This document shows, one piece after another, positions 13,315 to 57,039 of a DNA stretch of 64,000 nt. The notes beneath the pieces are model-generated. The model was given only the letters and a program-made list of their open reading frames with translations. It did not search any database and was not told where the DNA came from. The stretch comes from Sanderia malayensis (Eukaryota; Cnidaria; Scyphozoa; Semaeostomeae; Pelagiidae). The DNA lies in assembly GCA_013076295.1 (NCBI GenBank), contig RQOL01000531.1, forward strand, positions 1,984,001 through 2,048,000, written 5' to 3'. The translations under genes and the position numbers were made by a program. Within the stretch, counting starts at the first letter, position 1. Each line of letters opens with the position of its first letter.

Positions 13315-34803
<21,489 letters not shown>

Positions 34804-35769: not shown

Positions 35770-38700
35770 CTAACGCTCTTTGGTTTTGTTTTGGACTTTC
35801 CTCGGCACAAAAAGCTGTTGATCAGGTTTCTTCAACTTGAAAAGACCTTGACCTTCAGAAGAAGAATCAAGGGACTCATCCGAAGCTTCGCACATCCTTC
35901 CAGCTTGTTCAACATCTTCTCCTGATTCTGCTTTATTCTTCACTTCGCAGACGTTCTTGCTGATCTTTTTTGCATAAGTCTCCTTTACTCTTGTGAGAAA
36001 TTGCCTGGCTTCCTTTGAGCTTTGTGCCTTAGGTCTCTCAACTTCTTCATCTTCAAACAAAAGCTCTATCTTCTCTATCAATGCATGCATACTACCATGC
36101 CTTTCAATGCTAGCACTCTTATTATTTTGATCACAACTTCGCTCAAAATCTTCCGTCTCCAAACCACTATCGATGGAGTTGTTTTGTTTCTCACTCATAC
36201 AACTAGGATCATCTGCGAATTTTTTTGATTTCTTATTATCATCAGCGCCATTGGCCTGGTCAACAGTAATCGAATTGGCAACAGGCGTCAACTGGTCAAC
36301 GGGCATCGAATTGGCAACAGGCATTGAGTTGGCAACAGGCATCGAGTTGGCAACAGGCATCGAGTTGGCAACAGGCGTCGACTGGTCAACAGGCATCGAA
36401 TTGGCAACAGGCATCGAGTTGGCAACAGGCGTCGACTGGTCAACGGGCATCGAATTGGCAACAGGCATTGAGTTGGCAACAGGCATCGACTTGCCATCGG
36501 GCACCAATTGACTAACATTGGCAAATGTCTCCCCCTTACTTAATCCTTTATCACCACAAGATATCGACTCTTTCACATTAGTTCCAACTGACTTGACATC
36601 ACCACAGCAAACCGATTCACCATTATCTACATGTCCATTCTGAACACTGCTCATAAAGAGATCAGCTTCAACGTACTTAACATCGCCGTTACGTTGCAAA
36701 ATTTTCACGCATTTCGCCTTGGTGCTCTCTTCACCAGAACTGCTATTAGCAATCACATGATTTACGCATTCTTGACTTCCTAAATGCGCTACCACTGGCG
36801 CTTGAGTTTGCATAAGGCGTTCATCCCCATCACTCTGCTGTCCAAGTATTTCAATAGACTCCACCACGACATCATCATCGTCCCTGTCCATATCCGATTC
36901 ATCAAAATAAACATGAGCAGCTTGAGACGAATGCACAGTCGACTTCTCCTGAATCGCCTCCAAATCATGGCGACTTTCAATACTACCAGTCCCTTTTGAA
37001 TCACTCACAGGATTTACAATTGATGAACGATCGTTGTATTCAACAGCAGAAATGTCTACATCGATAGCAGAGTCTACATCCTTAATCGCAGCATGCTGGT
37101 TGCTGTAATTGCTGCACTCTTGCTGTACACTCAACGACGCGGGGCACTCATTTCTTGTCCCATCCGCATTGCTGTTCGCCATTGTCTGCGATGGATTCAG
37201 TTCAGCTCTCTTTGTTTCCTCTTTGCCCCCGTTCTGACTTGTAAACTGCTGTTCTGCACTAGACATAGGATGCATACAATGGTGCTTCTCGGCGAATCTT
37301 GGGATGAAAGGAACGTGTTGTCTAGAGAAGCTTTGATGCTCAGGGTGAATTTTCGCATTGGATGTTGAAGATGCTACTGAGTTCTAAAAGTGCGAAATCA
37401 ACATTAGGTTAAAAGAAGCAACTGCTAAAAAATTTATGAATATGGATATGGAAACATTAAGAGCACTTTCCAGGGCCCAATTCAGTTCAGCCTAGCCAGG
37501 CCAAGCCAAGACAACCCCAGCGAAACCCAACCCAACAAAGCTAAACTGAATTAAAAATAGAATGGTACATTTAAAATATTCAACCGAACTATTTTACTTA
37601 CCATTGGTTCATTAAAAACGTCTAAAGGGATCGTTGTGCCTTTAATCAACTCTTGGATGATTTGCTCGATGTATTTGATCCCTTCATTTCTCGAGACAAG
37701 AGCATTCGCTTTTCCCAAAGTCCATTGAGCTTCCAGTTTGGAACAGCTCAAAAACTGAACGTTAGCCTTCAAGAAACAAGTTCTCAGTAAGCACATAAAT
37801 AATTAATGATGATAAATACTTTTAGACGCTGTTCCCTCCCTGTGTAAAAAGCTTCATGGCTTAACAAAGCAAGCATCTGAACTGCCTTTAATTTTGCATC
37901 AAAGCAGAATTTAACCTTACTTGAGCCACTGAAATAATAACAAATGTATTACATATCTTCGAACATATTCCGATGATATTAATTTAGAATAGCGTGTTTC
38001 GTCGAATATTTGTTGTTAAAAATAAAGAAGTTCGACGCTTGTTATATCAGGACTTCTTCCATTGTTAAATCCAGAACAGAAAGGCTAAATTGTACAAACC
38101 TGGTATCTATATTGATTGTGAGGGTCATGACTTTTATAAATCTCAGAGGTTGCAACAGCCACTGCACTTATCCTGAGGTCTTCGTTGCAGCCTCGCCTGT
38201 ATGACTTGATAACGATGAAATATGTTGGCACGTTTGTTGTGCTGAACCTCTTGTTCAACAAATCCTTACACAGCTTGGTCGTCAACGGAATCCGCTTGGT
38301 CTCCACACTTCTTCGTATTATTTGGTAAGAAAAACAGAGAATAATAAACTGTGGATTTGTCTCCAGCAAAATCTGATGTAATCTGCTCATCTCTAATGCC
38401 CTTGGGCTGGTCGGCATTTGTTGTACTGTCTGATGTTGCGTTGAAGAATCTGAAGTACAAGCAAACAAATCATTACATCCACTTCAGTGAGTACTCTAGT
38501 CTTTAAAGCATCAGTAAATTTTAGAACTCAAGTTTCTCAAGAGTTTCTCAGGAATTTTTATCATTTTCTAAAAAATATTACGTGAAAAATACGATAATGA
38601 AAACGGTTAGAATCATTTAAATCAATGCGCTAACTAAATCATTGAAAACACTAACATTAGTAACACTAACATATCCAAAGAACAAAATTAGTCAAATCTA

Positions 38701-43304: not shown

Positions 43305-45775
43305 TTAATGCTGAATTTCGCCAAGTTGTTGGATGGGCGAGGGGCCAAGCTGCGCGTGATCTGTACTGCGCACAGTCGCCCGCGAATCAGATATGTCGAC
43401 CTTGATCAGCGGTTTCTTCTCGGGTGCTTTCATCTTCCACTTGACGATTGGGGTCTAAAATGGATTGAAGTGAATGATTCAAACTACGATACACCCAGTA
43501 TATTGTTCAAACAAAATGGGCTATTGTTTCTTCCATAGTTGAAACACAAGTCTATTGTTTTTTCTATTGTTGTGAGAAGAGATTTTATCTCAAAGGTTGT
43601 TATAAACGTGGGTTCGTATCTGCGGGTCTTCACTGTATACAGGTACAACGAGAGGCTTCATAAAGCAGCATAAAAAGCAAAGTGGTTTCTCAAACCTCGG
43701 CAGTTCTTCGTTGTTTTGTCGATGCAACGTAAGACGACTTGACGGTGAGAATAACAGAGTTCATCAGATTCTTAGCAGCTTGGATAAGCGACGTTGCACT
43801 GTCGAGCTAAACAAAGAGAACACATTCTTATCTTATAGCATTGCATAAAGTTATATAAAATAAAACTCGGTACATACAAGTAAGAGGCTTGAGCCCCATA
43901 TTGTATGGTTTATGGCCCTTTATTAGTGGCCCTATATTGTGGCCCTATATTAAAGAACATAACATATCAAATACAGAGTATAGTATAGTGTGTTAGGTTA
44001 GGTATAGCATGCTATAGCATGGTATATGTAGGGTATGATATAGTGTGTTAGGTTTGGCGTAGCATGCTATAGCATGGTATATGTAGAGTATGGTATAGTG
44101 TGTTAGGTTAGGTAGAGCAAGCTACAGCATGGTATACGTAGAGTATGGTATAGTACATGTATGTGTCATGCTCAAATTGAAAGGCACTTACTCCTGAGAC
44201 AACGAGTTCTCCGCTGATCATCTGTACATCAGCCTTAACACGTGCGGTGATGGTAAGCTGATGTGAGTACAATGCGATTCGTTGTAAGTAAGCAAGCAGA
44301 TCGTTCTTCGTTGGACTGTGTGGGCACTGCAATGGCAAGTGGATTTTCAAAGGTTATCTCAAAGGTTAAAGGCTGAAGGGTAAAGTTTAAAGCAGTCAAA
44401 GGATAAAGGAATAATATCAAAACATGCATAATAAAGGTCAGATATATAATAATACAGATACGTTGGTGGACAACACCATTTTTGAGAATGGCGTCAATAA
44501 TTAAGGAATATAACTAGGAATGGTTGACAAATCCAAGACAACAGTTGCTTTGATTTCAAACAATATAAATAATGGTTTTAAAAGCATTTGCTGAAATCAT
44601 ATCAGTAGATGAAACGAAGTAACTGTGGCCTGCAGCAAGAAGAACACACAAAGCACACGATGGACTGTTAGCTCAATACTTAACAGTCACTTCATGAATT
44701 AAAGAAAGAAGAAGTAACTGGCTGGCATAGCTTATCTTATAATACAGGTGCTATCGTACCTTGTCGGCAATTTCACCAGCAAGTTTGTTCAAAGCTTGAC
44801 CGAGCTTGGCAATTCTCTACAGAAAACAAGTGGAAATAATTGGTTAACAGTTGATAATAGAAACATCTACAGACGCTTGCGTGCAAGTAATATATGGAAT
44901 CACATTGCAGTTATCTCTAATGGAAGCAGCTACAAATTAAAAGGTGGTAGATTATCACATAAATACATGCACCTTCATGCAAGCAACATACCATGGGCAT
45001 ATAAGTAATGGTAAGTATATAGTGATGTTGTGAATGGAAAAGACGATGCATAGTTACCTCAGCACCCCGAATTACATCCATTGTTGTCTTCATCGGTCCA
45101 GTTCCTCTGTTGATAAGAATTAAAACAAAAAGTTAATGCTTGTATAACTAATATTATCATTACTTGTAACTAGCAAGATGGAGGTAAGTTTCCAGCAAAA
45201 TAAAATAATGCTTTATGTATTATTCATCTTGTTTACCTATGATGTCAAACCAAGGATCAGAAAGATGCATGAATTACGAAAATTAGTCTCAATATCAGGG
45301 GTTCGTAGCAATGAGATAGATGTACCTGGTACTTAAGTGAGAAATATTCAAAGATGGTAAAAAATATTGACCCTTAGATCGTACCTCGTGAAGTCAGACA
45401 TGTCCATCATGATCATACACATCTTTTTCGCCAATACAATGATGTCATTACTTTGGTCATCCCATTTGCTGACTTCAGTGACGAGTCTGTTCTTCTCCAT
45501 GCGCAGTCCTTCGTTCAACTTGGCAATCTTAGCCTTCTCCTCGGCGGGCAGGGCTCGCATGATCGACTAAAATAATAAACAACAAGCTCAACCGAAGATC
45601 TTCCCAAGCTCCCAACCTTTGTCGATGTATAAGTAAATCTGACTCACTCTGGCGCTGGTCTTTGTGAGTGTTTGGAAATTCTGGTCGAAATCACGCTCGC
45701 CTTTCCTCTCAAAGTCGTCATACTGTGAGAATTCAGCTGGTTCGTAGCCCTGAAAGACATCTTCTTCTCCTTGCG
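43305..45775 (-). CDS. CTNNA: Alpha-catenin exons 19-25: linker end and actin-binding domain
   Basis: Exons are 45648-45775, 45385-45566, 45058-45106, 44760-44816, 44192-44326, 43696-43806 and 43305-43454. The first is an acidic linker (EEDVFQGYEPAEFSQYDDFE). The rest are the five-helix actin-binding domain: ALPAEEKAKIAKLNEGL, VSKWDDQSNDIIVLAKKMCM, DLLAYLQRIALYSHQL, SATSLIQAAKNLMNSV and SSYVASTK, then the tail KWKMKAPEKKPLIK. Length and order match vertebrate alpha-catenin. The last exon ends GEIQH. Confidence 0.95.
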
Positions 45776-48700
45776 CTGATAATGAAATCAAAGCGTTAAT
45801 CGAGGGACAGAAGGACGAAACATGGCAAGACAAACAAAGGTGGAACAAGACAAGGCAAGATAACGATATGGACAATTACATATGCAGCAAATAAAGAAGG
45901 CAATACAGTGGACCCTCGCTATCTCGAACTAAATTCACCCAAATAGAGAATGTTTGAGATAACCGAATTCGAGATTCGACTGTAAACAGAATAAATTATG
46001 AGCTGTAGATCAGATTAGCCAGGTTAAGACCTTCATTTGACATTCAGATTAAGATATTCAATTGGAACCTACTTTTTAACTTTTTAAGTACAAAATTGTA
46101 GTTATATCCTTTTGATTAATTTACGCCGTTATAAAAAACCCTTGTACTAAGGATTAGTGTGCTGTGTTTATACACATATCTACATATATACATATACAAA
46201 GTGATCATGAAAAACTTACCGAGTCTTTCAGCTCCTTCGGGTGTAATGACAAGAGTGATGATCTTGGATGGACCCTGTCCACGTGGTTTAGACACTTGTT
46301 TCAACCAGACGACCTTCTCCTCACCAGTGTAACCAAGCAATGCAAAAGAGCCCTTCTTACTTGCATCAAGATCTTCATCAGCACCAACTCGGATCAAAGC
46401 CTCCTTCACATTTTCCATGCCTTCGCCTATTTCAACAATTAATATCATTATGCATAATATATTCACAATATAGAGAGCACAGTAACGCATTCCGCCGCGA
46501 TAAACTAACCAACTGGTCCCTTAAACTGTTTCATGTTACATATCACCTTCGGTTTAATGGATATTCATACAGCCAAGCTGGATTCGTTGATTAGTTACGT
46601 CGTAAGCACAATCACGCAATGTAGTGAGTATGTAGCCAAGTTAAAGCCCCCTTATTGTTTGCTACATCAAGATTCTATTTTAGCCTTTAAATACATCATG
46701 CAATATCTCAAAGAGAAGACAAAAATTCTACTGACCCAGAGCTTCCAAAGATGCCACACAAACCATTCTCTCGCTTGGCAAATCATCCAAAAATTCTGCC
46801 ATTTTCTGTCCTTCACTCAAGCCTCGTGTTGGGTCAGCCGTGTCAAAGTGTTTCGATACGAGGTAGTTTCCTGCGCTGTCAAGTACGACAACATTGAAAC
46901 CGCGCTGCATTGGGCTTCTTTCGATTCCGTTGATCTTAATCGAAGCAATCCGACTGAATCCAGGATCATCGATTCCTTCCGATGATATTTCAACTTTGAT
47001 TTTTCCTTTATTGAAAAATAAGACAAACAGTAATTACTAAATGGCATCACAAACTCTTAGGATTAAAAGAAGATTAGCAACATTTCACTCAGTCAAATCT
47101 CCAAATTTTAATAATGCTATTTACCTTGGTCGGCAGCAGGAGTGTTGATCATATCTGCAACCATAGCCGGACCATGATAACGAGGCCTTGTTACCTGGGT
47201 AACCCAGTTCTTTGTGTGATGAGCTCCTTTGAAGCCGGCAAATGCCCAGGATCCTTTGTGTCCCGGGTCCACGGGTTCGACGGCTCCGAGTTTCTTCAAG
47301 GCCGCTTCGGCTTTTTCAACTCCTTTTCCTGAAATTTACAATTCACACAAGCCACGTTAGGTTACGTAAATTGCAATTTATGTAACCACGCACTCTTACA
47401 TTTGCAACAATAAAATACCAGAGTTGAAACTCGATACAACACCTTTTCCCCTTGACTTTCACTATCTATTAATAATGCTTCGAGTATAATAGCTACTCTA
47501 TGTATAGAACCCACGCTTACTCATACTAGTCTCAAGATATTATCAAGACTTCACTGTAAACCCTATACATACACTCATAGTAAGTAGCAAAACAAATCTG
47601 GCATACCTGTGGTATCTTGTACGGCAATAAGAGCGATGTATTCATCCGGGATATCATCGAGAAACCTGGCCATTGCCATTCCTTCTTGCGGGTCAGTGGT
47701 ATTGAAAGACCTCGTTGAAACAACATTACCAATCTCATCGAGAACAACAACATTGTGGCCCTTCTTTTTCGGACAGCATTCAATACCGTTGACAATAATC
47801 GATGCCTCCCCTTTCACGCCAGGGTCGTCACCTCCTTCGCTGTGAATCTCAAACTGAACTTTTCCTAAAATGAGTAACAGATGAGTATCAGAATCAGAAT
47901 CAGTATTAGAATCAGAATCAGTATCAGAATCAGAATCAGTATTGGAATCAGAATAAGTATTAGAATCAGAATCAGTATCAGAATCAGAATCAGTATTGGA
48001 AGCAGAATCAGTATTAGGATTAGAATCGGTACAAATTTCAAAGCAACTACTAAATGCTTGTCTCTCGTTGCTAATGCACTCGTGGGTTCGTACCTCCCGC
48101 CTTCAGCTGTTCATACGCAGCCTTTTCTCTCTGCCTCGCTTGGGCATCCGCCAACGAGGCCAAGAGTGTTCCTTGATCAACCTCTTCTTCTTCCTCGTCC
48201 ATTTGTCCATCTTCTTCGTCTGGTTTCTGCAAAACAAATCATTTTATCAAACAACGTCCTCTCGAAATTCGAAATCGTCTCATTTATCCTGGTCTGTGCC
48301 CATTAAAAAACTGGAGACAATCTAATATAGTGAAGCCTCAGAAGACAAAAGCAATGAAGAAATTCACTCAAGCTAATGGTCATATTTAAAGCATACATAA
48401 AGCAAGCGAACATCAAGGAAGATAACAAGCATCTCAGACCTCAACTACTTTAAAGTCAGAAACTTTCGCGAGAAGAAACTTTCGCGAATTTGGCTAAACA
48501 CGCGAAAATCGCGAAAGTTTCTTCCTTTAAAGTATGGCATCACATTAGTTGTTACTTACTCGCTTCATCATAACAGCCTTTCTGATATCCCTGATTCCTT
48601 CGTAGACCTGTGGAAAGACGATGTAAAAAGCATTACACTTGCATTTACAACAACCTGTAGAGGGTACTGGGATAGTGTTTGCCATCGCTTACCAATCTTG

Positions 48701-51700
48701 AGGCATCTATGAATGCGCTATCGTCAAACTTTGCTGACGGATCATTGGTCAATGCATCCACAGAGGCATCCACGTACTCGGCAAATTGGGGCATAACTGA
48801 AAAAACAAACAATAAATGTTTCAAGTATGCTTTAAAATGCACTTGCTCGCGCATGCGTGTGAAACGTACTTGTACACGCTTATTGCTTAATAAATACGAG
48901 GTTGTTAAGCAACAGATTTGCGCCTTCGCACTCATCAGACAATTAGTCTCTCTTCTTGTATACTGAATGCTCCGCACATCTGTGCATTTCAAAAGACAAA
49001 TAAATAAATGATTATTAATTTACTAATTCAACTCACTGCTTTCCCGCATGACGTGAACGGCTCTTTTCACGGTCTCTGTATAGGGTCCTGGTTCATAGTT
49101 TTCCATTTCAGCTGTGACAACATTGTCAACACGTGACACACGACCTCTGACGGCCCCAGCCTTCTGGTCCAGCGTCTCCGGGTCAGAATGCTGCAAAGCT
49201 TCGATGCACTTATTCACATCTTCCAATATGTGCGCCTCTGCGACAAAAGAATAACGCTATCGTTAGCTATCAGTCTATTAATCTTGCTGACATTGGGGAT
49301 GCACGATATTATTCTCTTCATCAGCCTGTGACACAAGCTTTGAAGCGATTTTAGCGTATATTCTATGCAGTCACCATCGTTATACAGGAGATCATAGGTT
49401 TGTTAAACCAAGGGAAAATTAAGGTATCAAAGTGTGGATATCTGTTATGCTAAAAGGCTTGGTATAACAGATTACATCCTCTATTATAACAGGGAGAATT
49501 CTTCAATTATAATAAAATAACAGAGATTATTATTCTATTATCTTATCTTGGCCTTATTGAGTTCCAATTGCACAGTTTCCAAGGCTCTTTAAAGTAATGA
49601 ATAACATGCTGTTTGAAGAAAGGGTTGTATATACAAACATGATTGAAATGCAAACAAATGTTACCAGAAACAGCAAGGAAGTCGTCAATGGTGGTTATAT
49701 CATCAACGGCTTCGGTGAGAACCCTGACTTGGTGAATCCAAGCATCTCTGAACACATCCATGTTCTCTTTGGCAGCCTTGCTGCGTGGCCTGGCAGCCAA
49801 AGTCCTGGCGGCGTTGATAACCTGGAAGGCAACAGGCAAAAATGCTCATCTGAGGAGGCGCATTTGAGAATTAAAGTGGCGGGTGTGATCATGGCACAGG
49901 TGTTCGAGAGGGAAAGCGCCCTGCTGCTCAATTACTGCACCATCTATAAGGTAGAAACAAATCACGCCACCCCTAGGAGGGAGAATTTCTGAGATTCATT
50001 GCTCAGCTTCACAAGTAGCAACATTAGCAATGAACATAAAGAGAGTAGGTGATTTGTTTAGTAGCATGAGTTTCTTAAAAGCACAGAAAAACATTTGATT
50101 ACCTCTAAAAGGAGAGTAAAGAAAAAAGCAGTATGCCTACCTGTGGACACAAAGAATGCAATTGATTGGCAGCAATGCGAACCATTTTGATGCCTTCGTT
50201 GTTATCAGACATTGAACATGCCAAATTAGCAACCTGAAACACAAGGAACTCATCGCATTAGTTTAAGAAAGTGTATATAGCTTAATATATCATTAATATT
50301 TACAACAAAAAAGACAGGCTTTTGGCATATTTTGTCGGGAAAGGCTGTAACACATTGGAGCCCGGTAAGCCTGAACATCAAACCATCATGTATAACAAAC
50401 ACATCGGTGTAGCAAGTGAAATATCTGGTCCTTTAAACCGTCTTATAGAAAAATCAACCCTCCGTTCAACGAGTTCCCAAGATAACAATGAAGGTTCTGG
50501 TCGCCTTCAATAGTCACTGTAGATTTTACAACAGATATAGGAGAGAAGAAAGGGACCAGATACGAAGCAATACCTCTTCAAGCTTGGCGGCGTGCTCAGT
50601 GAAAACAATAGCATACTCTTCAACCTCTTTTTCGTTTCCGGCCTCGGCAGCCTCGATTAGGAGCATGAGTGGAACATTGGTGGCAAGGAATGAGTCCGAG
50701 ACATGGTCTATCACAGCTTTACGTAACTAAATAAAAATTGAGTAAATCGTATAATGGCTTATACATGACTGGGGTGGGAGGGAGAGAGAAAATATTATAC
50801 TAGAGTATATTATTTAGAGAGAAGCAACTAAGCGATAGGCGAGGAGATTAGTTAAAGCTAGGAGTTAGTAAAATCTGCGCGTATAAACCTTATTACCTGA
50901 CGTCCAAGATCCTTGGTTTTCTTTTCAAATTCAGCCTTCGCACTTTCCGCATTATTAGACTTTCCTTTGGCCTGGAAGATACGACCACAATTGCTATACA
51001 TAGATACATATAACACGTATCGATCTACTGGGCTTTCTTTAACAAATTGAGAAAACAAATGAGAAACAAAGCCCGGTAGACATCCTTCAGTTTACGCAAA
51101 ACAAAAACCTCATAGAAACAAAACAAAGTCTTACATGCTTCATGTATTCATCCATCAAATGCTTCAATGCATCTTTCACATTATTGCATTCGGCTAGCAG
51201 CCTTTCACGTGAGTTATCACGTGTGCATGATGAATTGGCCAATCGCTGGGCTCCGGCTAAAATCTCCTCCAATTGCTTTTCAAGGTCAAGACGTGTCTTC
51301 TTCTCCTGATACTCGGCAGGCCTTTTATTGATCATGTCCTACGGTGGATAAATATTTAATTAGTCTCATCTGAAATGTTTCTGTTCTTCGCAACCTCATT
51401 GATAACAACATAAACACAGTAACAACATAAGCACAGTAACAACATAAGCACAGTAACAACATAAACAACATAAAATGACCATTGAAGAACGCTACAGCCA
51501 ATTCCCCTTCTAATGCTAATTCGTTATGTTAGTCGAATGCATTGCACTTCAACTACTTTGTTCTTTAAGCATATTAATCCCTCTTTTCATCACGAAGATC
51601 CCAATACTCCAAAAAATACCATATGCAATGTAAGACTTACCAGTAAGGCTGAGAGAGCTTTGGCCAGAGCACCGGCTTGCTCAAATGGAGATGGCTCACT

Positions 51701-54700
51701 GTCACCGACGGACTGAGCCACGCCAGAAATTGCATTCACAGCATCGTTGATTTGCTTCAGCACGAAATCTCGGTTGTGCTTCGTAGAGGCAATCTCGGGG
51801 TGCTTCACGTAAGCCTATTACAATGACACAGAAAAGACATTAGACTTGCGACGGTTTAGGGATAAACGTCAGCTGCATAAATCTGAAATAGATCACACCC
51901 GTGATAAATCGAATATCCACAAATCTGTATGAGTGGGCGAGGCTTTGAGTTGACACAGTTTGAGGTTGAAGCACGTGGAAAGAAAGTGATTTAAAGAGAC
52001 TTAGAGATGCTTGACACATTGAGGACTCTTTCACTAATGTCTGTCCATTAGTCAAAACTCGCTGTACCGACTCAAGATAAAAAATTAAGAAGTATAACGT
52101 GACTTAAATTATGAGTGCATATTAATTTGCATAAATTATGCAAGCTCTTATTACTTGGAGTAAACCGGATTAAATCTAACGTTTAACCTCATTCTGCATT
52201 TGAGCTTGAAGTATGAGGGTCTTGAAAAATTTCAATCAAGTGTAAATAATTATAGATTATTACCTTTGATGTTGTGAGCAACATTCTGCTTGACTTTTTC
52301 AATGTTGCTCTGGCAGCTGCCATCTCATCTTTCCTTCTTGGATCCTTGAGATCCTGAAAAATAGATGAATTCACCATCAAGAACAACACAGAATTCTGAA
52401 GACATGCTAACACACTTGCTACCGTGTTTACTGTTATTTTGTGACAACAAGCATCCTCTGCAGCAACCAACAAGAAAAAACTTACTGCTTGTCTGAGGCC
52501 TGAGAGCTTGGCAAGTTTCATGAGGTCATCTCCGTAATTCTTGAAGCATTTCAGCAAGTCATCAGTGTTATCGGCATCCTCCAACTCCTTCAATCTCTTT
52601 TCAACCTACAACAAGGCAATTCCTTTGTCAAAGAATTTTTCACACAAAAACGTTGCTGGAATATAAGGAATCAGTAGTTAGATAACATTATAAAGACAAA
52701 CTGTTGAATCCTTTCATTAACTCAGCCTATAGATTGACATTAACCCTCTCATGCCCAGCGTCCCAGTAGGTCCCAGTAGAAGCAAAAATCATTAAAAACC
52801 CAATTTGATTAAAACTGGCTGAAACTCGGTGAAAAGTACAATTTTAGGGCGCTGAATTCGAATATCGAATTTATTTTTTGAAATTTTTATGTTTTGGGGG
52901 CAAAAGATGGGGGTAAAAGGGGGCAATATGCAAATTTTGAAACTCGTCCAATTTGCATCAAATTTGGTGAGAAGTACAATTTTCGGGCGCTGAATTCGAA
53001 TATCGAATTTATTTTTTGAAATTTTTATGTTTTTTGGGGGGGGGAGTGGGGCAAAATTGGTCATCAAGTGTGCAAGCACAGATTGGGCGTGTCATCAAAG
53101 GTCACAGAGTAATAGCGGTTGGCAGCAGACAATCGTAGAAACAGGTCATTTAGTTGGGATATATGGTAGCTTTTAAAAAAGCTGTTTTTGATTCAGTTGA
53201 CGTTGCTTTGACAGTTACAGCAGCTTCTACAATAGCTTAGATCTCTTCTTCGTTTTCCTGAGATTGACTGCTCGGCAGATCGAATTCACGTGCAGCATGA
53301 AACTTATTCCAGCAGTCTCTTCCTCTGGTATTTGAGCAAAGAGCAAAAGGATCGCCAGGACCAGAACACTTTTTGCAACAAAATGATGTTTTCTTGTGGC
53401 AAATTCTGCATTTCAATCTTTTCTCTTTGCTGGAAGATTCCTCTGCTGAAATTCTCTTTTCTTCATGGCGACCCTTTCTTGGTGATGCGAGGGCAGATTC
53501 CAACGATCTTTTCTTTCCACGTGGTTTATCAGATGGATAATGGAGGACTGGCATACGTCCATGATACATCTTGAACTTTGCATACCAGATACGAATTACT
53601 TCGAATCGAAATGAGCTTTGCGAAAGAGCATTTTTCGATAACTGCTCGTGAAAATTAGTGCTGTTGCGCCATAAAGTATGACCGTTGACTAACACGTACA
53701 TCTCACAAAGGCTATCGAAAATTCTGTTTTGCTTCCTCACACTTCTAAATTCAGCATTATAATAAGACAGTTGCTGGTTGGTTCTGTCTACCCATCCATA
53801 CATTTCACGATATAGTGCAGCAACTCTGGGCATATGAATGATGACCTTTTCTCTTCCTTGGTTGACTTCAACAGGTTCCCAGTACTGCTGGCCAGACTTG
53901 ATGTCATTATCCAAGAAGACTACCACATTGTTGTCGTTCCAATATGTGATGTTTAGAAAACCTTTGTGAAGAGATTTAGAGAACCCACGAACAAATTGTC
54001 TTGCTGAACTCAAATTGTCCTTATGGCTGCATGGGAAATGAGCAGTGTTGCCCCTTTGCGTAGCAATTAATCGAGTATGCCATTTGTTCTTTGTATCTTC
54101 CATTAATTTTATTGTGGGAAAGCCACTGTCCATAACAACCAAACGTCCACTGTCTTTAAATTCAGATATGAGTTGCTCAACAATATCATAGTTTTTACCA
54201 TTGCCAGATGTTTTGTACGTTTTCTTCCCCACTTTCACCACATGGTTAGCAACATAATTTCCACCGTTTGCTCCCTTATCACTGACTTTACAAATTGTCC
54301 ATCCCATTCTTATTGGCTTGTCTGGATTTCTTATTTTATAAGGGTTCCTTTTGCTTTTGCTAGTCACTCTTCCTTCATCAACGCACATTTTCCAGCCAAC
54401 CGTCCACTTTGATAATGATTTCTGTCTGAGATATTCAACTCCAGAGTTAATATTCTGCAAAGGATGGTAGTCTGGATGATCTTTAGGTGGCAAGGATGAA
54501 GCTTTGACAACTCGAAAGTGCTTTAGCATCAGACGAAAGACTTCATGGCTCATTGTTTTCTTTATTTCTGGCTGTGATTGCAAGGGGTCCTCACTCCAAG
54601 CCCATCTATATTGCCGATATCCAAGAAGACGAAGATGCCATTTGATTGCAAAGAAACCTCTTACAAAACGTATTCCTGCCTCATCTTTTGAAATCTCCCC

Positions 54701-57039
54701 AATTTTCTCAACGAATGATGGATCTTCAGCGCCATGTTCATTTGTACTTGCAATACATGTCATGATAAATTCGTCGTCCATAACACCTTCAACAATCTCA
54801 TGTGGTTTTGTACCAGCATCAAATATAACAGCAGGTCTCCCATACTCAGGTATTCTTTCTGACGGAGCAATAGAACCTTCAAAATCTGCTTCTGACTCTG
54901 TAGACCAGTGGCAGCAACCAGGTTGATCATCATCGCTTTCAATACCATGAGGGTCATAAACTTCGCTATCATCGTAGGCCATGAGCTCGTCATATTCTTC
55001 AGCTGACAACTCAGACAATGAAGAAATATCACTTATGCTTTCGCTATCAGAAAAATCGCTCTCGGTTTTGATATTCATCGTATTTCAGATAAATGAATCA
55101 GAAGTTCACGATAAGATATTTCTGATTTTGTAATGCAATGTCGGTCTGAACAGTTAAGTTTTTCATTATCGTAATCACTATTTTGAATTTCGCGCCAAAA
55201 CTGTAACAAAATAAAGCTCAGCCCCAGGCCTCTAAATAATAATATAGTCGTAAAAACTCCAATTTTTGCCCCCCAAACATAAAAATTTCACAAAATAAAT
55301 TCAATATTCGAATTCAGCGCCCGAAAATTGTACTTCTCACCAAATTTGATGCAAATTGGACGAGTTTCAAAATTTGCATTTTGCCCCCTTTACCCCATTT
55401 TTTGCCCCCAAAACATCAAAATTTCAAAAAATAAATTCGATATTCGAATTCAGCGCCCCAAAATTGTACTTTTCACCAAATTTGATGGAAATTGGACGAG
55501 TTTCAAAATTTGCATTTTGCCCCCTTTTACCCCATTTTTTGCCCCCAAAACATCAAAATTTCAAAAAATAAATTCGATATTCGAATTCAGCGCCCCAAAA
55601 TTGTACTTTTCACCGAGTTTCAGCCAATTTTAATCAAATTGGGTTTTTCATGATTTTTGCTTCTACTGGGACCTACTGGGACGCTGGGCATGAGAGGGTT
55701 AAGGCGTAAAAACTCAACTAAACTCGGTAGACAGAACACAATGAAATAAGTTGTAGCCTTAAGTTTCACGATCCTCAGACCACTAGTTAAAAGCATGCCG
55801 CTAGTATACGGACTCAGTTGAAAATAGAGCAAAATGAAAAAAGTTTTCACTCACCAATTTCAGAGTGGCAATAAGTCTGTAGACGTCGGCCATATCAGCC
55901 ACACACAGCAATCTTGTTATGGCAGCAAGCAGGGCTCTAGCAGCTCTGATCATCACGCTTCTTTTCGCCGACGAACATGGGTCAGCTGCAAAATCAGTCG
56001 AAGCTGCTCTCATTGTATCTCCCGCAGAACGAGCTTCTTTGCATGCTTCAAGCATAGGTTCCTTGATCTCTGGGAAATCATTTGCAATACTTTCACCAAC
56101 GACAACAAGACGCTCTGTTGCTTCGTCAATCTCTTTAGCAAGCTGACTTGCTTTTTTGGATTTTCCTGATTTGGATTTTCTTTGATGATTCACAAGAGTT
56201 GTCACCTGTGATTGCCAAAACACAAATCAACGTTCTATTCATTAACTTTCAGGCTTGTAAAACTTATAATAAGACTAACCTTATATTCTTAGCCATGTTC
56301 AATGAAACAAGTAGGGATGCAAAGAAGCAAAGGTTCTAGGAGACATAAAAGGGGACATCTCGGGATGGCATTGCTTCAAAGTTTAGTACAATAGCTACAT
56401 TTAAAGCAGTTTCTTTTCACTGATCTAGAATGGGAGTCGGGACGCATTTTTTAAGAAAGTATTTTGTCTAAACCAGTTAGGAAAGGTTCTCAAATGCATG
56501 CAATATGGAAACCATTAAAAAAATTCTCAACTCAGTGTTAAGCAGATATTCTGTCTCGCCATTTACAATAAGCGGATCCACCCAACGAGCCAGACAATCA
56601 ACAAGTGAATGGGTTGAACCAGGTGACGCACACACTACAATTGTTAATCATGATAATCGCAAATCGTAAACAACATGAAGCTTTCTCTACCATGGCGTCT
56701 CAAATACTCCCATCAAAATTTAATTTCCCATCAGTATCTACCTGACAGGGTCTATTTTCTCTTACTCAATCTTCACAATAACCACCATACATAATACGTG
56801 GGTTTTGTATTTATTCAAAATTTAATGAAATGCCATGTTGCCAGAGTCATGCCACTACATTACGTCAGGGTTTAACAGTATTGTCTTGCAAAGGCCTAAG
56901 CAAATGTACAATCTTTTACCTGGTGAACCAAAGGCTCTAAAGTCTTCTCCACTGATCTGGTTCGGATTTCCACAGCTTTGGGGTCCCATTTAACCTTCGA
57001 AGCCTCAACCTTGAAGTCTGTGTAAGTTTTAGTAGACAT
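43305..57039 (-). CDS. CTNNA: Alpha-catenin with two inserted ILEI/PANDER-type domains, 25 exons
   Basis: Twenty-five exons sum to exactly 1,257 codons plus stop; vertebrate alpha-catenins have about 906. The start ATG is 57039-57037. Colinear landmarks include VKWDPKAVEIRTRSVEKTLE (beta-catenin-binding N-terminus), ARALLAAITRLLCVADMADV, SSCTRDNSRERLLAECN, AVDDITTIDDFLAVS, VSKWDDQSNDIIVLAKKMCM, DLLAYLQRIALYSHQL and VKWKMKAPEKKPLIK. Alpha-catenin links the cadherin/beta-catenin complex to actin through N (dimer/beta-catenin), M (vinculin-binding) and C-terminal actin-binding domains. The extra length is almost entirely four exons between M and the actin-binding domain, residues about 675-987, encoding two ILEI-type domains. 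Block entries below give coordinates. Intron 2 hosts a piggyBac element. Orthology is certain; the insertion is the novelty. Confidence 0.95.
43976..44155. repeat. Tandem repeat, three copies of about 60 bp
   Basis: Units share GTATAGTGTGTTAGGTT and ATGCTATAGCATGGTATA, the latter containing a short palindrome. It lies in the alpha-catenin intron between exons 44192-44326 and 43696-43806. Confidence 0.85.
45904..45984. repeat. MITE-like foldback with TACAGTGGACC ends
   Basis: TACAGTGGACCCTCG at the left pairs imperfectly with CGAGATTCGACTGTA at the right. The ends resemble pogo/Tigger-type elements. It lies between alpha-catenin exons 46220-46426 and 45648-45775. Confidence 0.5.
46220..47005 (-). 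CDS. CTNNA: Alpha-catenin exons 17-18: second inserted ILEI/PANDER-type domain
   Basis: Exons are 46736-47005 and 46220-46426, about 159 residues (829-987). It parallels the first module: ASIKINGIERS, then FNVVVLDSAGNYLVSKHFDT, MAEFLDDLPSERMVCVASLE, VKEALIRVGA and SFALLGYTGEEK. The internal intron is at the same place as in the first module (just after the Gly that follows the QDTT or LEAL stretch), and both exons are phase 1-1. The conserved Trp of SWAF is Phe here. The two modules look like a tandem duplication of a two-exon unit. The donor of exon 46736-47005 is GTCAGT, slightly weak. Confidence 0.86.
47125..47864 (-). CDS. CTNNA: Alpha-catenin exons 15-16: first inserted ILEI/PANDER-type domain
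   Basis: Exons are 47607-47864 and 47125-47328, about 154 residues (675-828). The sequence shows the family hallmarks known from FAM3 cytokines, POMGnT1 stem, TMEM2 and CEMIP: GEASIIVNGIE, then HNVVVLDEIGNVVSTRSFNT, then MARFLDDIPDEYIALIAVQD, then AEAALKKLGA and SWAFAGFKGA. Both exons start and end in phase 1 with GT..AG junctions, and neither has a start or stop codon of its own. No signal peptide or membrane segment is near. In known proteins this fold is secreted or lumenal, and in POMGnT1 it binds carbohydrate. Its task in a cytoplasmic catenin is unknown. Confidence 0.88.
47881..48027. repeat. ATCAGA-type microsatellite
   Basis: Repeats of AGAATCAGAATCAGTATC fill the start of the intron between alpha-catenin exons 48094-48226 and 47607-47864. 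The Ile/Arg-rich plus-strand frame across it is an artefact. Confidence 0.9.
48094..48796 (-). CDS. CTNNA: Alpha-catenin exons 12-14: end of M domain and acidic linker
   Basis: Exons are 48693-48796, 48560-48607 and 48094-48226. The first two read MPQFAEYVDASVDALTNDPS and VYEGIRDIRKAVMMKR, matching the end of the human M domain. The third is an acidic/charged linker (DEEDGQMDEEEEEVDQG, then ADAQARQREKAAYEQLKAG) that ends on one base of a Gly codon. It takes the place of the human acidic linker before the actin-binding domain, and it is where the inserted domains attach. Confidence 0.9.
48447..48533. repeat. 87-bp foldback with ACTTTAAAG ends and GAAACTTTCGCGA arms
   Basis: ACTTTAAAG at the left and CTTTAAAGT at the right bracket GAAACTTTCGCGA and its reverse complement TCGCGAAAGTTTC. 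The left arm carries an internal second copy of AACTTTCGCGA. It looks like a very short MITE in an alpha-catenin intron. Confidence 0.65.
49037..57039 (-). CDS. CTNNA: Alpha-catenin exons 1-11: N-terminal and M domains
   Basis: Exons are 56920-57039, 55855-56205, 52486-52605, 52264-52353, 51641-51814, 51135-51338, 50897-50971, 50574-50726, 50141-50233, 49665-49821 and 49037-49237. They encode residues 1-579. Apart from the first exon (start-variable N-terminus) each aligns along its length to human alpha-catenin, for example KDPRRKDEMAAARATLKKSS, DHVSDSFLATNVPLMLLIEA and ILEDVNKCIEAL. Most junctions are phase 0. Confidence 0.95.
51406..51474. repeat. Short tandem repeat, AACAACATAAGCACAGT units
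   Basis: Three to four copies of a 17-18 bp unit in the alpha-catenin intron between exons 51641-51814 and 51135-51338. Confidence 0.8.
52744..55698 (-). mobile_element. piggyBac-type DNA transposon, 2,955 bp, structurally complete
   Basis: The element starts CCCTCTCATGCCCAGCGTCC and ends with its reverse complement GGACGCTGGGCATGAGAGGG. It is flanked on both sides by TTAA (52740-52743 and 55699-55702), the piggyBac target. Terminal repeats continue as near-identical sequence for well over 100 bases and contain repeated units with GAATTCGAATATCGAATTT, two at the left end and three at the right. One uninterrupted transposase frame lies inside on the minus strand. It sits in intron 2 of alpha-catenin in the same orientation as the gene. 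Confidence 0.93.
53237..55078 (-). CDS. piggyBac transposase, 613 residues, intact frame
   Basis: A single exon from ATG 55078-55076 to the stop at 53237. The N-terminal 70 residues are acidic and Ser-rich. The DDE core shows Asp candidates at MCVDEG (D234), VVMDSGFPT (D317) and TYWNDNNVVV (D382), the three positions expected for piggyBac catalysis. The C-terminus has a cysteine-rich domain (CRICHKKTSFCCKKC, then CSNTRGRDCWNKFH), which in piggyBac binds the terminal repeats. The protein would cut at the element ends and paste into TTAA sites without leaving a footprint. No stop or frameshift is visible, and the ends are intact, so the copy may be recent or active. Activity is inferred only from structure. 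Confidence 0.93.
   Translation of the reverse strand: MNIKTESDFSDSESISDISSLSELSAEEYDELMAYDDSEVYDPHGIESDDDQPGCCHWSTESEADFEGSIAPSERIPEYGRPAVIFDAGTKPHEIVEGVMDDEFIMTCIASTNEHGAEDPSFVEKIGEISKDEAGIRFVRGFFAIKWHLRLLGYRQYRWAWSEDPLQSQPEIKKTMSHEVFRLMLKHFRVVKASSLPPKDHPDYHPLQNINSGVEYLRQKSLSKWTVGWKMCVDEGRVTSKSKRNPYKIRNPDKPIRMGWTICKVSDKGANGGNYVANHVVKVGKKTYKTSGNGKNYDIVEQLISEFKDSGRLVVMDSGFPTIKLMEDTKNKWHTRLIATQRGNTAHFPCSHKDNLSSARQFVRGFSKSLHKGFLNITYWNDNNVVVFLDNDIKSGQQYWEPVEVNQGREKVIIHMPRVAALYREMYGWVDRTNQQLSYYNAEFRSVRKQNRIFDSLCEMYVLVNGHTLWRNSTNFHEQLSKNALSQSSFRFEVIRIWYAKFKMYHGRMPVLHYPSDKPRGKKRSLESALASPRKGRHEEKRISAEESSSKEKRLKCRICHKKTSFCCKKCSGPGDPFALCSNTRGRDCWNKFHAAREFDLPSSQSQENEEEI

Follow-up and report, generated by a model that had tools for sequence, protein, structure and literature searches.

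We analysed a window of 64,000 nucleotides from the scyphozoan Sanderia malayensis (contig RQOL01000531.1, positions 1,984,001 to 2,048,000), which holds a complete alpha-catenin gene on its minus strand at window positions 57039-43305. Alpha-catenin links cadherin junctions mechanically to actin and is commonly regarded as a single machine conserved throughout the animals. In the Sanderia gene, four exons encoding two tandem ILEI domains (Pfam PF15711) are located between the exons of the M domain and those of the actin-binding domain (ABD). The gene model, which is a prediction from genomic DNA alone, joins 25 exons through introns that are all of the GT-AG type, and the resulting open frame comprises 1,257 codons and a stop within a span of 13.7 kb including introns:

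Exon 1, 56920..57039, minus strand: start codon, alpha-catenin N-terminus
Exon 2, 55855..56205, minus strand: N-terminal (beta-catenin-binding type) domain
Exon 3, 52486..52605, minus strand: N-terminal domain
Exon 4, 52264..52353, minus strand: N-terminal domain
Exon 5, 51641..51814, minus strand: transition from the N-terminal to the M domain
Exon 6, 51135..51338, minus strand: M domain, first part
Exon 7, 50897..50971, minus strand: M domain
Exon 8, 50574..50726, minus strand: M domain
Exon 9, 50141..50233, minus strand: M domain
Exon 10, 49665..49821, minus strand: M domain
Exon 11, 49037..49237, minus strand: M domain
Exon 12, 48693..48796, minus strand: M domain
Exon 13, 48560..48607, minus strand: end of the M domain
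Exon 14, 48094..48226, minus strand: acidic linker 1; beyond it a helix of the AEAQARxREKxAYEQL type, predicted from the Clytia relative, leading into ILEI domain 1
Exon 15, 47607..47864, minus strand: ILEI domain 1, first part, residues 675-760; phase 1 on both sides
Exon 16, 47125..47328, minus strand: ILEI domain 1, second part, residues 761-828; phase 1 on both sides
Exon 17, 46736..47005, minus strand: ILEI domain 2, first part, residues 829-918; phase 1 on both sides
Exon 18, 46220..46426, minus strand: ILEI domain 2, second part, residues 919-987; phase 1 on both sides
Exon 19, 45648..45775, minus strand: acidic tyrosine-containing linker 2 and start of the ABD
Exon 20, 45385..45566, minus strand: ABD
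Exon 21, 45058..45106, minus strand: ABD
Exon 22, 44760..44816, minus strand: ABD
Exon 23, 44192..44326, minus strand: ABD
Exon 24, 43696..43806, minus strand: ABD
Exon 25, 43305..43454, minus strand: C-terminal tail and stop codon

The ILEI cassette within the alpha-catenin gene

The spliced protein matches the Vinculin family (PF01044) in two stretches with 5.8e-286 and the ILEI family in two stretches with 2.1e-30. The best match of its N-terminal and M domains in the Protein Data Bank (PDB) is 6upv, a structure of catenin alpha-1 (936.7 bits), while the M domain also matches 1h6g and the ABD matches 6dv1. The top vinculin chain reaches only 215.7 bits, so that the closest solved relatives are alpha-catenins. 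The N-terminus, MSTKTYTDFKVEASKVKWDPK, resembles those of other alpha-catenins and the ILEI exons are internal, which sets the product apart from the short secreted proteins of the FAM3 type. The beta-catenin- and F-actin-binding domains are recognised by similarity, and binding to these partners is predicted.

The genome (184,004,477 bases in 918 contigs) was searched for exons of both families. Among the 24 PF01044 exon matches, ten belong to this gene; since the remaining 14 represent a vinculin-like gene and divergent family members, it seems to be the sole ordinary alpha-catenin of the genome, within this exon-by-exon search. The divergent vinculin-family genes are found at L027 (contig C815), L028 (C616), and L029 and L030 (C478), the latter two having an identical short ABD match, perhaps from a duplicated assembly stretch.

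Scored singly, the two ILEI domains reach 64.4 and 49.5 bits against a curated cut-off of 27. Exons 15 and 17 also exceed this cut-off in the raw genome profile search, which does not depend on the gene model:

ILEI exon match, C478:2031608-2031760: 35.5 bits
ILEI exon match, C478:2030746-2030904: 31.9 bits

Each unit is about 155 residues long, compared with 90 residues of the Pfam ILEI core. In the predicted structure the units adopt the fold of FAM3 proteins and of the POMGnT1 stem, and the pair matches POMGnT1 stems that were solved in complexes (5ggj, 5ggl, 5ggn). At all five junctions from 14|15 to 18|19 the codon is split after its first base (phase 1). The cassette comprises 939 bases, or 313 codons, and phase 1 at both of its ends means that its addition or removal keeps the reading frame; indeed, computed removal leaves a 944-residue catenin with no internal stop.

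The exon boundaries proposed in the initial annotation for the cassette (47864-47607, 47328-47125, 47005-46736 and 46426-46220) are exact, as are the end of the preceding catenin exon at 48094 and the resumption of the catenin at 45775. The canonical splice sites and the intact frame of 1,257 residues were likewise reproduced, and the ILEI profile search that it had named as a possible refutation returned a match. Its statement that the cassette has no internal start or stop is half right: there is no stop, but in-frame ATG codons do occur, for example in GMAMAR.

By eye, intron 14, directly before the cassette, contains about 20 GATTCT/GATACT-like repeats (47880-48010, minus strand). Intron 2 of the catenin gene harbours a 615-residue open frame for a piggyBac-type transposase (53237-55084, minus strand; PF13843, 3.8e-27) with short repeated stretches beside it, also noted by eye. 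Elsewhere on the minus strand of the window there are exons with C2 and FerB domains of a ferlin-like gene (21708-23857), a Ras-family GTPase exon (1014-1442; PF00071, 2.1e-19), and an open frame of 537 residues that contains a short tandem NSMPVA-type repeat and matches DUF963 (35773-37383).

Distribution among animals and origin of the pair

A search with the insert region against 5.8 billion proteins, limited to lengths of 691-2,200 residues and to E-values of 0.01 or better, returned 12 matches, ten of which combine PF15711 with PF01044. The other two (P0011 and P0012) are large proteins with ILEI and peptidase domains (PF01364), P0012 being named as from a bacterium. The named carriers are Hydractinia symbiolongicarpus, Clytia hemisphaerica, Dendronephthya gigantea, Orbicella faveolata, Stylophora pistillata and Actinostola sp.; Actinia tenebrosa was added by an M-domain search with P0009. 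Looked-up lineages place Hydractinia in Hydrozoa and Dendronephthya in Octocorallia, that of Actinia having been looked up likewise; we take Clytia to be a hydrozoan, Orbicella and Stylophora to be stony corals, and Actinostola to be a sea anemone. Among the matches listed, the pair is present in every entry with a cnidarian name (seven species). All named relatives with both domains are cnidarian, contrary to a hint at tunicates in the initial annotation. A chance origin of the fusion is excluded by the 11 other protein clusters that carry both Pfam domains.

Four of these sequences (P0001, P0008, P0009 and P0010) code for 1,263 to 1,280 residues on contigs of at most 5,112 bases. These contigs probably derive from transcripts in which the ILEI and catenin exons are joined, because an intron-bearing gene of 13.7 kb would not fit into this length.

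M-domain searches retrieved 1,644 proteins with the window protein as query and 1,586 with the coral-like P0009, and the best 120 of each were taken. PF15711 was found in P0001 only among the former and in nine of the latter, leaving 111 without it. In neither set of 120 does any bilaterian-named entry contain PF15711, the named entries without this domain being those that we take to be bilaterian. None of the matches listed is named as a sponge, placozoan, ctenophore, Nematostella or Hydra, so that the origin of the pair can be placed no more narrowly than between the cnidarian ancestor and the bilaterians.

In a midpoint-rooted tree of 161 catenins, built without a vinculin or catulin outgroup and without P0011 and P0012, the 12 carriers are split from the other 149 sequences (support 0.989 and 1.0). 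Only columns occupied in over 60% of the sequences entered the tree, so that the insert itself played no part in it. The insert measures 313-321 residues in all 12 carriers, and the 149 others have at most 60 residues at this place. P0003, P0005 and P0007 are incomplete predictions, and P0006, a fused prediction (1,566 residues), is not part of alignment A1 but was kept in the tree and in the identity comparison. The pair is conserved across Hydrozoa and Anthozoa and absent from the bilaterian alpha-catenins examined. A literature search in open-licence papers found no paper that mentions ILEI domains in a catenin. The claim of a new architecture in the initial annotation holds for these papers and not for databases, where such proteins already appear under the name 'catenin alpha-2-like', with precomputed matches to both Pfam domains. 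On sequence grounds, this is a known protein and a known domain in a combination unreported in the literature searched and conserved over two main cnidarian branches.

Both units consist of two exons, with internal introns at the same alignment column and in the same phase, and 67 of 153 residues are identical between them, which suggests that a two-exon unit was duplicated in tandem. In a tree of single units, unit 1 forms a clade (support 0.993). Of the 27 ILEI exon matches across the genome, this gene accounts for two, and 19 lie on contigs C809 and C815, where ILEI units are amplified in clusters (L009-L016). Within one 9.5-kb stretch of C809, VWA, SUEL-lectin, ILEI and F5/8C exons occur on one strand, and because of this company its ILEI units are very likely extracellular. 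The best-scoring internal intron of ten same-genome relatives is in phase 0 in nine and in phase 2 in one, phase 1 occurring in none; relative to the catenin position it lies downstream in eight of the ten and upstream in two, by a few residues in L018 and by more in L023. Extracellular modules that have been shuffled typically have phase-1 flanks, so that capture of the ILEI module from an extracellular gene can fairly be inferred. A unit of this fold would have been captured once by exon shuffling at phase-1 introns, before the split of Anthozoa and Medusozoa, and subsequently doubled in tandem.

Sequence constraint and possible roles of the pair

The initial annotation placed the two ILEI domains in the force-bearing linker between the M domain and the ABD, and this load-path position agrees with an eLife 2020 paper on alpha-E-catenin (PMC7588230), according to which tension likely stretches that linker and pulls on the H0/H1 elements of the ABD, the gates of strong actin binding. 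Given the chain order of M domain, ILEI-1, ILEI-2 and ABD, any load should pass through the pair. The pair lies in series about 40 residues before SARSIMRALPAEEKAKI, a stretch that we take to be the H0/H1 counterpart by its resemblance to the human sequence. Modelling predicts two FAM3/POMGnT1-stem-like folds with a helix at the entry and two acidic linkers of low confidence on either side, the low-confidence stretches of the Clytia model being residues 636-659 and 993-1030.

Compared with 11 relatives, the window protein shows 50-65% identity in ILEI-1, 43-59% in ILEI-2, 53-61% in the M domain and 61-75% in the N-terminal domain; across 10 relatives the ABD shows 68-83%. The linkers are less similar (30-63% for linker 1 and, across 10 relatives, 20-38% for linker 2). 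Across 12 sequences, of which P0007 and P0008 share the same insert, unit 1 has 35 invariant positions and unit 2 has 37. Several of these are uncommon in other ILEI units, specifically C705, H711, R808 and T823-A825 in unit 1, and R858, D886 and R967 in unit 2. In the coral and anemone relatives P0006-P0010 and P0132, linker 2 (exon 19, 45775-45648) contains repeated acidic tyrosine motifs (YEP, SDYE), which look like candidate tyrosine-phosphorylation sites.

We assign a probability of roughly 0.55 to the pair acting as a folded spacer and docking module, set in line so as to carry tension from the M domain to the ABD. Load between cadherin/beta-catenin and F-actin would pass through the pair, which would set the length and stiffness of the tether just ahead of the H0/H1 catch-bond elements. 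It may also offer a protein-binding surface, for which C705, H711 and R808 of domain 1 and R858, D886 and R967 of domain 2 are candidates. These effects on tension sensing and partner binding are proposed from the sequence and model analysis. Several points weigh against this reading. The full-length Clytia model has a predicted template modelling score (pTM) of 0.36, which gives no confident placement of the pair relative to the M domain, and it lacks most of the ABD. The S. malayensis protein is known here as a gene model predicted from genomic DNA. The carriers are seven named species, not 'all cnidarians', as Nematostella and Hydra are missing from the matches listed. ILEI-2 is less conserved than the M domain, and the conservation would also suit a docking role without mechanics. 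Finally, in the single-unit tree neither the domain-2 units nor all catenin units together are monophyletic, a short TMEM2 fragment falling among them; this tree does not settle the history, and the duplication rests on the shared intron.

Next in weight to the in-line spacer and docking module come, in this order, an allosteric lid, a regulated cassette, a lectin, a neutral spacer and an artefact. As an autoinhibitory or allosteric lid, the pair would pack on the M domain or the ABD and tune actin affinity or dimerisation until load removes it. Such a lid is unlikely. In its favour are its position ahead of H0/H1, whose disruption raises the actin affinity of alpha-E-catenin (PMC7588230), and the invariant positions whose residues are uncommon elsewhere among ILEI units. 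The two low-confidence stretches of the Clytia model part the pair from both neighbours, and the model shows no confident packing.

It is improbable that the exons form a regulated cassette, skipped in most transcripts so that the 944-residue form does the usual work. Skipping would keep the frame, as the cassette counts 939 bases and is in phase 1 at either end, but the pair is found in all cnidarian-named entries and in the four transcript-like clusters among the matches listed. None of the 149 sequences without the pair falls among the carriers in the catenin tree, although minor forms could be missed among the best 120 matches.

Somewhat less probable still is a cytosolic lectin for beta-linked GlcNAc, which would recognise O-GlcNAc carried by junction or actin proteins as the POMGnT1 stem recognises the sugar on O-mannosyl glycans. 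Beyond the fold match to the POMGnT1 stems, it draws on a study (PMC9802357) in which sugar binding is described for FAM3C, FAM3A and a worm FAM3-like domain. According to that study, R129, D179 and R207 of POMGnT1 contact beta-linked GlcNAc, and a worm FAM3-like domain without two of these three residues did not bind while its neighbour domain did. We aligned 24 catenin units from 12 proteins (P0007 and P0008, identical in the insert, being counted twice) with 11 same-genome relatives and six reference units. The 11 units were drawn from the 25 ILEI exon matches outside this gene; L023 was left out for an uncertain junction, and weak or near-duplicate units of L009, L010, L014, L015, L017, L020 and L022 were not used. 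The arginine equivalent to R129 is present in 12 of 12 domain-2 units, and unit 1 of P0001 has the whole triad. This is the only complete triad among the 24 catenin units, compared with four of the 11 same-genome relatives and five of the six reference units, namely POMGnT1 (which defines the triad), human FAM3B, the N-terminal unit of TMEM2 and two units of P0011; the C-terminal fragment of TMEM2 stops short of the first triad position and has G and K at the second and third. The D179 position is occupied by D in four and the R207 position by R in two of the 24, and the two units of the window read K/D/K and R/E/K. With the triad complete in 1/24 units, the lectin reading is weak, and the 'lectin-like' function of the initial annotation is not supported.

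The cysteine comparison covered the pair typical of the other ILEI units of this genome: both members are present in eight of the 11 relatives and in none of the 24 catenin units, five of which have one of the two. The mostly incomplete triads and the lack of this pair agree with a module that is adapted to the cytosol and serves some purpose other than GlcNAc binding. After its duplication, the pair may have been adapted to the cytosol through the absence of the disulphide pair, and away from GlcNAc binding.

There is little to favour a neutral, mechanically passive spacer fixed by descent: the flanking linkers do tolerate change (20-63% identity), but ILEI-1 is conserved like the M domain, ILEI-2 is not far below it, and both units retain their many invariant residues. 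A gene-model artefact, in which an unrelated ILEI gene lies inside an alpha-catenin intron, can practically be dismissed, given the shared strand, the GT-AG junctions that are in frame on either side and the recurrence of this fusion at the identical site in 11 further clusters; nothing was found in its favour.

Significance and comparison with known systems

The pair is conserved in corals, anemones, hydroids and a jellyfish and is located where load would enter the ABD. One of the two main lineages of animals would have remodelled the junction machine, with a module of a mainly extracellular family retained in the cytosol. Cnidaria are the usual outgroup from which the beginnings of bilaterian junctions are inferred, so that the difference bears directly on such inferences. 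The pair also makes it possible to test cleanly whether the mechanics of the linker or additional partners altered the way junctions behave. A tentative and rather doubtful extension is that cnidarian adherens junctions use a different tension gauge, an extracellular-type fold domesticated in the cytosol before the coral/jellyfish split, bearing load in series with the alpha-catenin catch bond and having a partner that binds or leaves on stretch. In that case the molecular core of cell-cell mechanics would differ between Cnidaria and Bilateria, and cadherin-catenin results from Nematostella or Hydra would not be simply transferable.

The window protein is like the alpha-catenins CTNNA1/2, Drosophila alpha-Catenin and C. 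elegans HMP-1 in the order of its N-terminal, M and actin-binding domains, and differs from all of them by about 313 extra residues, the two ILEI domains in the M-to-ABD linker. The POMGnT1 stem, lumenal in a Golgi glycosyltransferase, binds beta-linked GlcNAc through the R129/D179/R207 triad, which is incomplete in 23 of the 24 catenin units. FAM3A, FAM3B (PANDER) and FAM3C (ILEI) are secreted single-domain signals with one unit each, whereas the window protein carries two units inside a cytosolic protein. The ILEI domains of TMEM2/CEMIP are extracellular, within a hyaluronan-related protein that has no vinculin domain. The other ILEI units of the Sanderia genome (on C809, C815 and elsewhere) are like the catenin units in length and, for most of the ten joined ones, in a GPS/GPA-like motif at the end; they differ in the phase of their internal intron (0 or 2 as against 1) and in their frequent cysteine pair.
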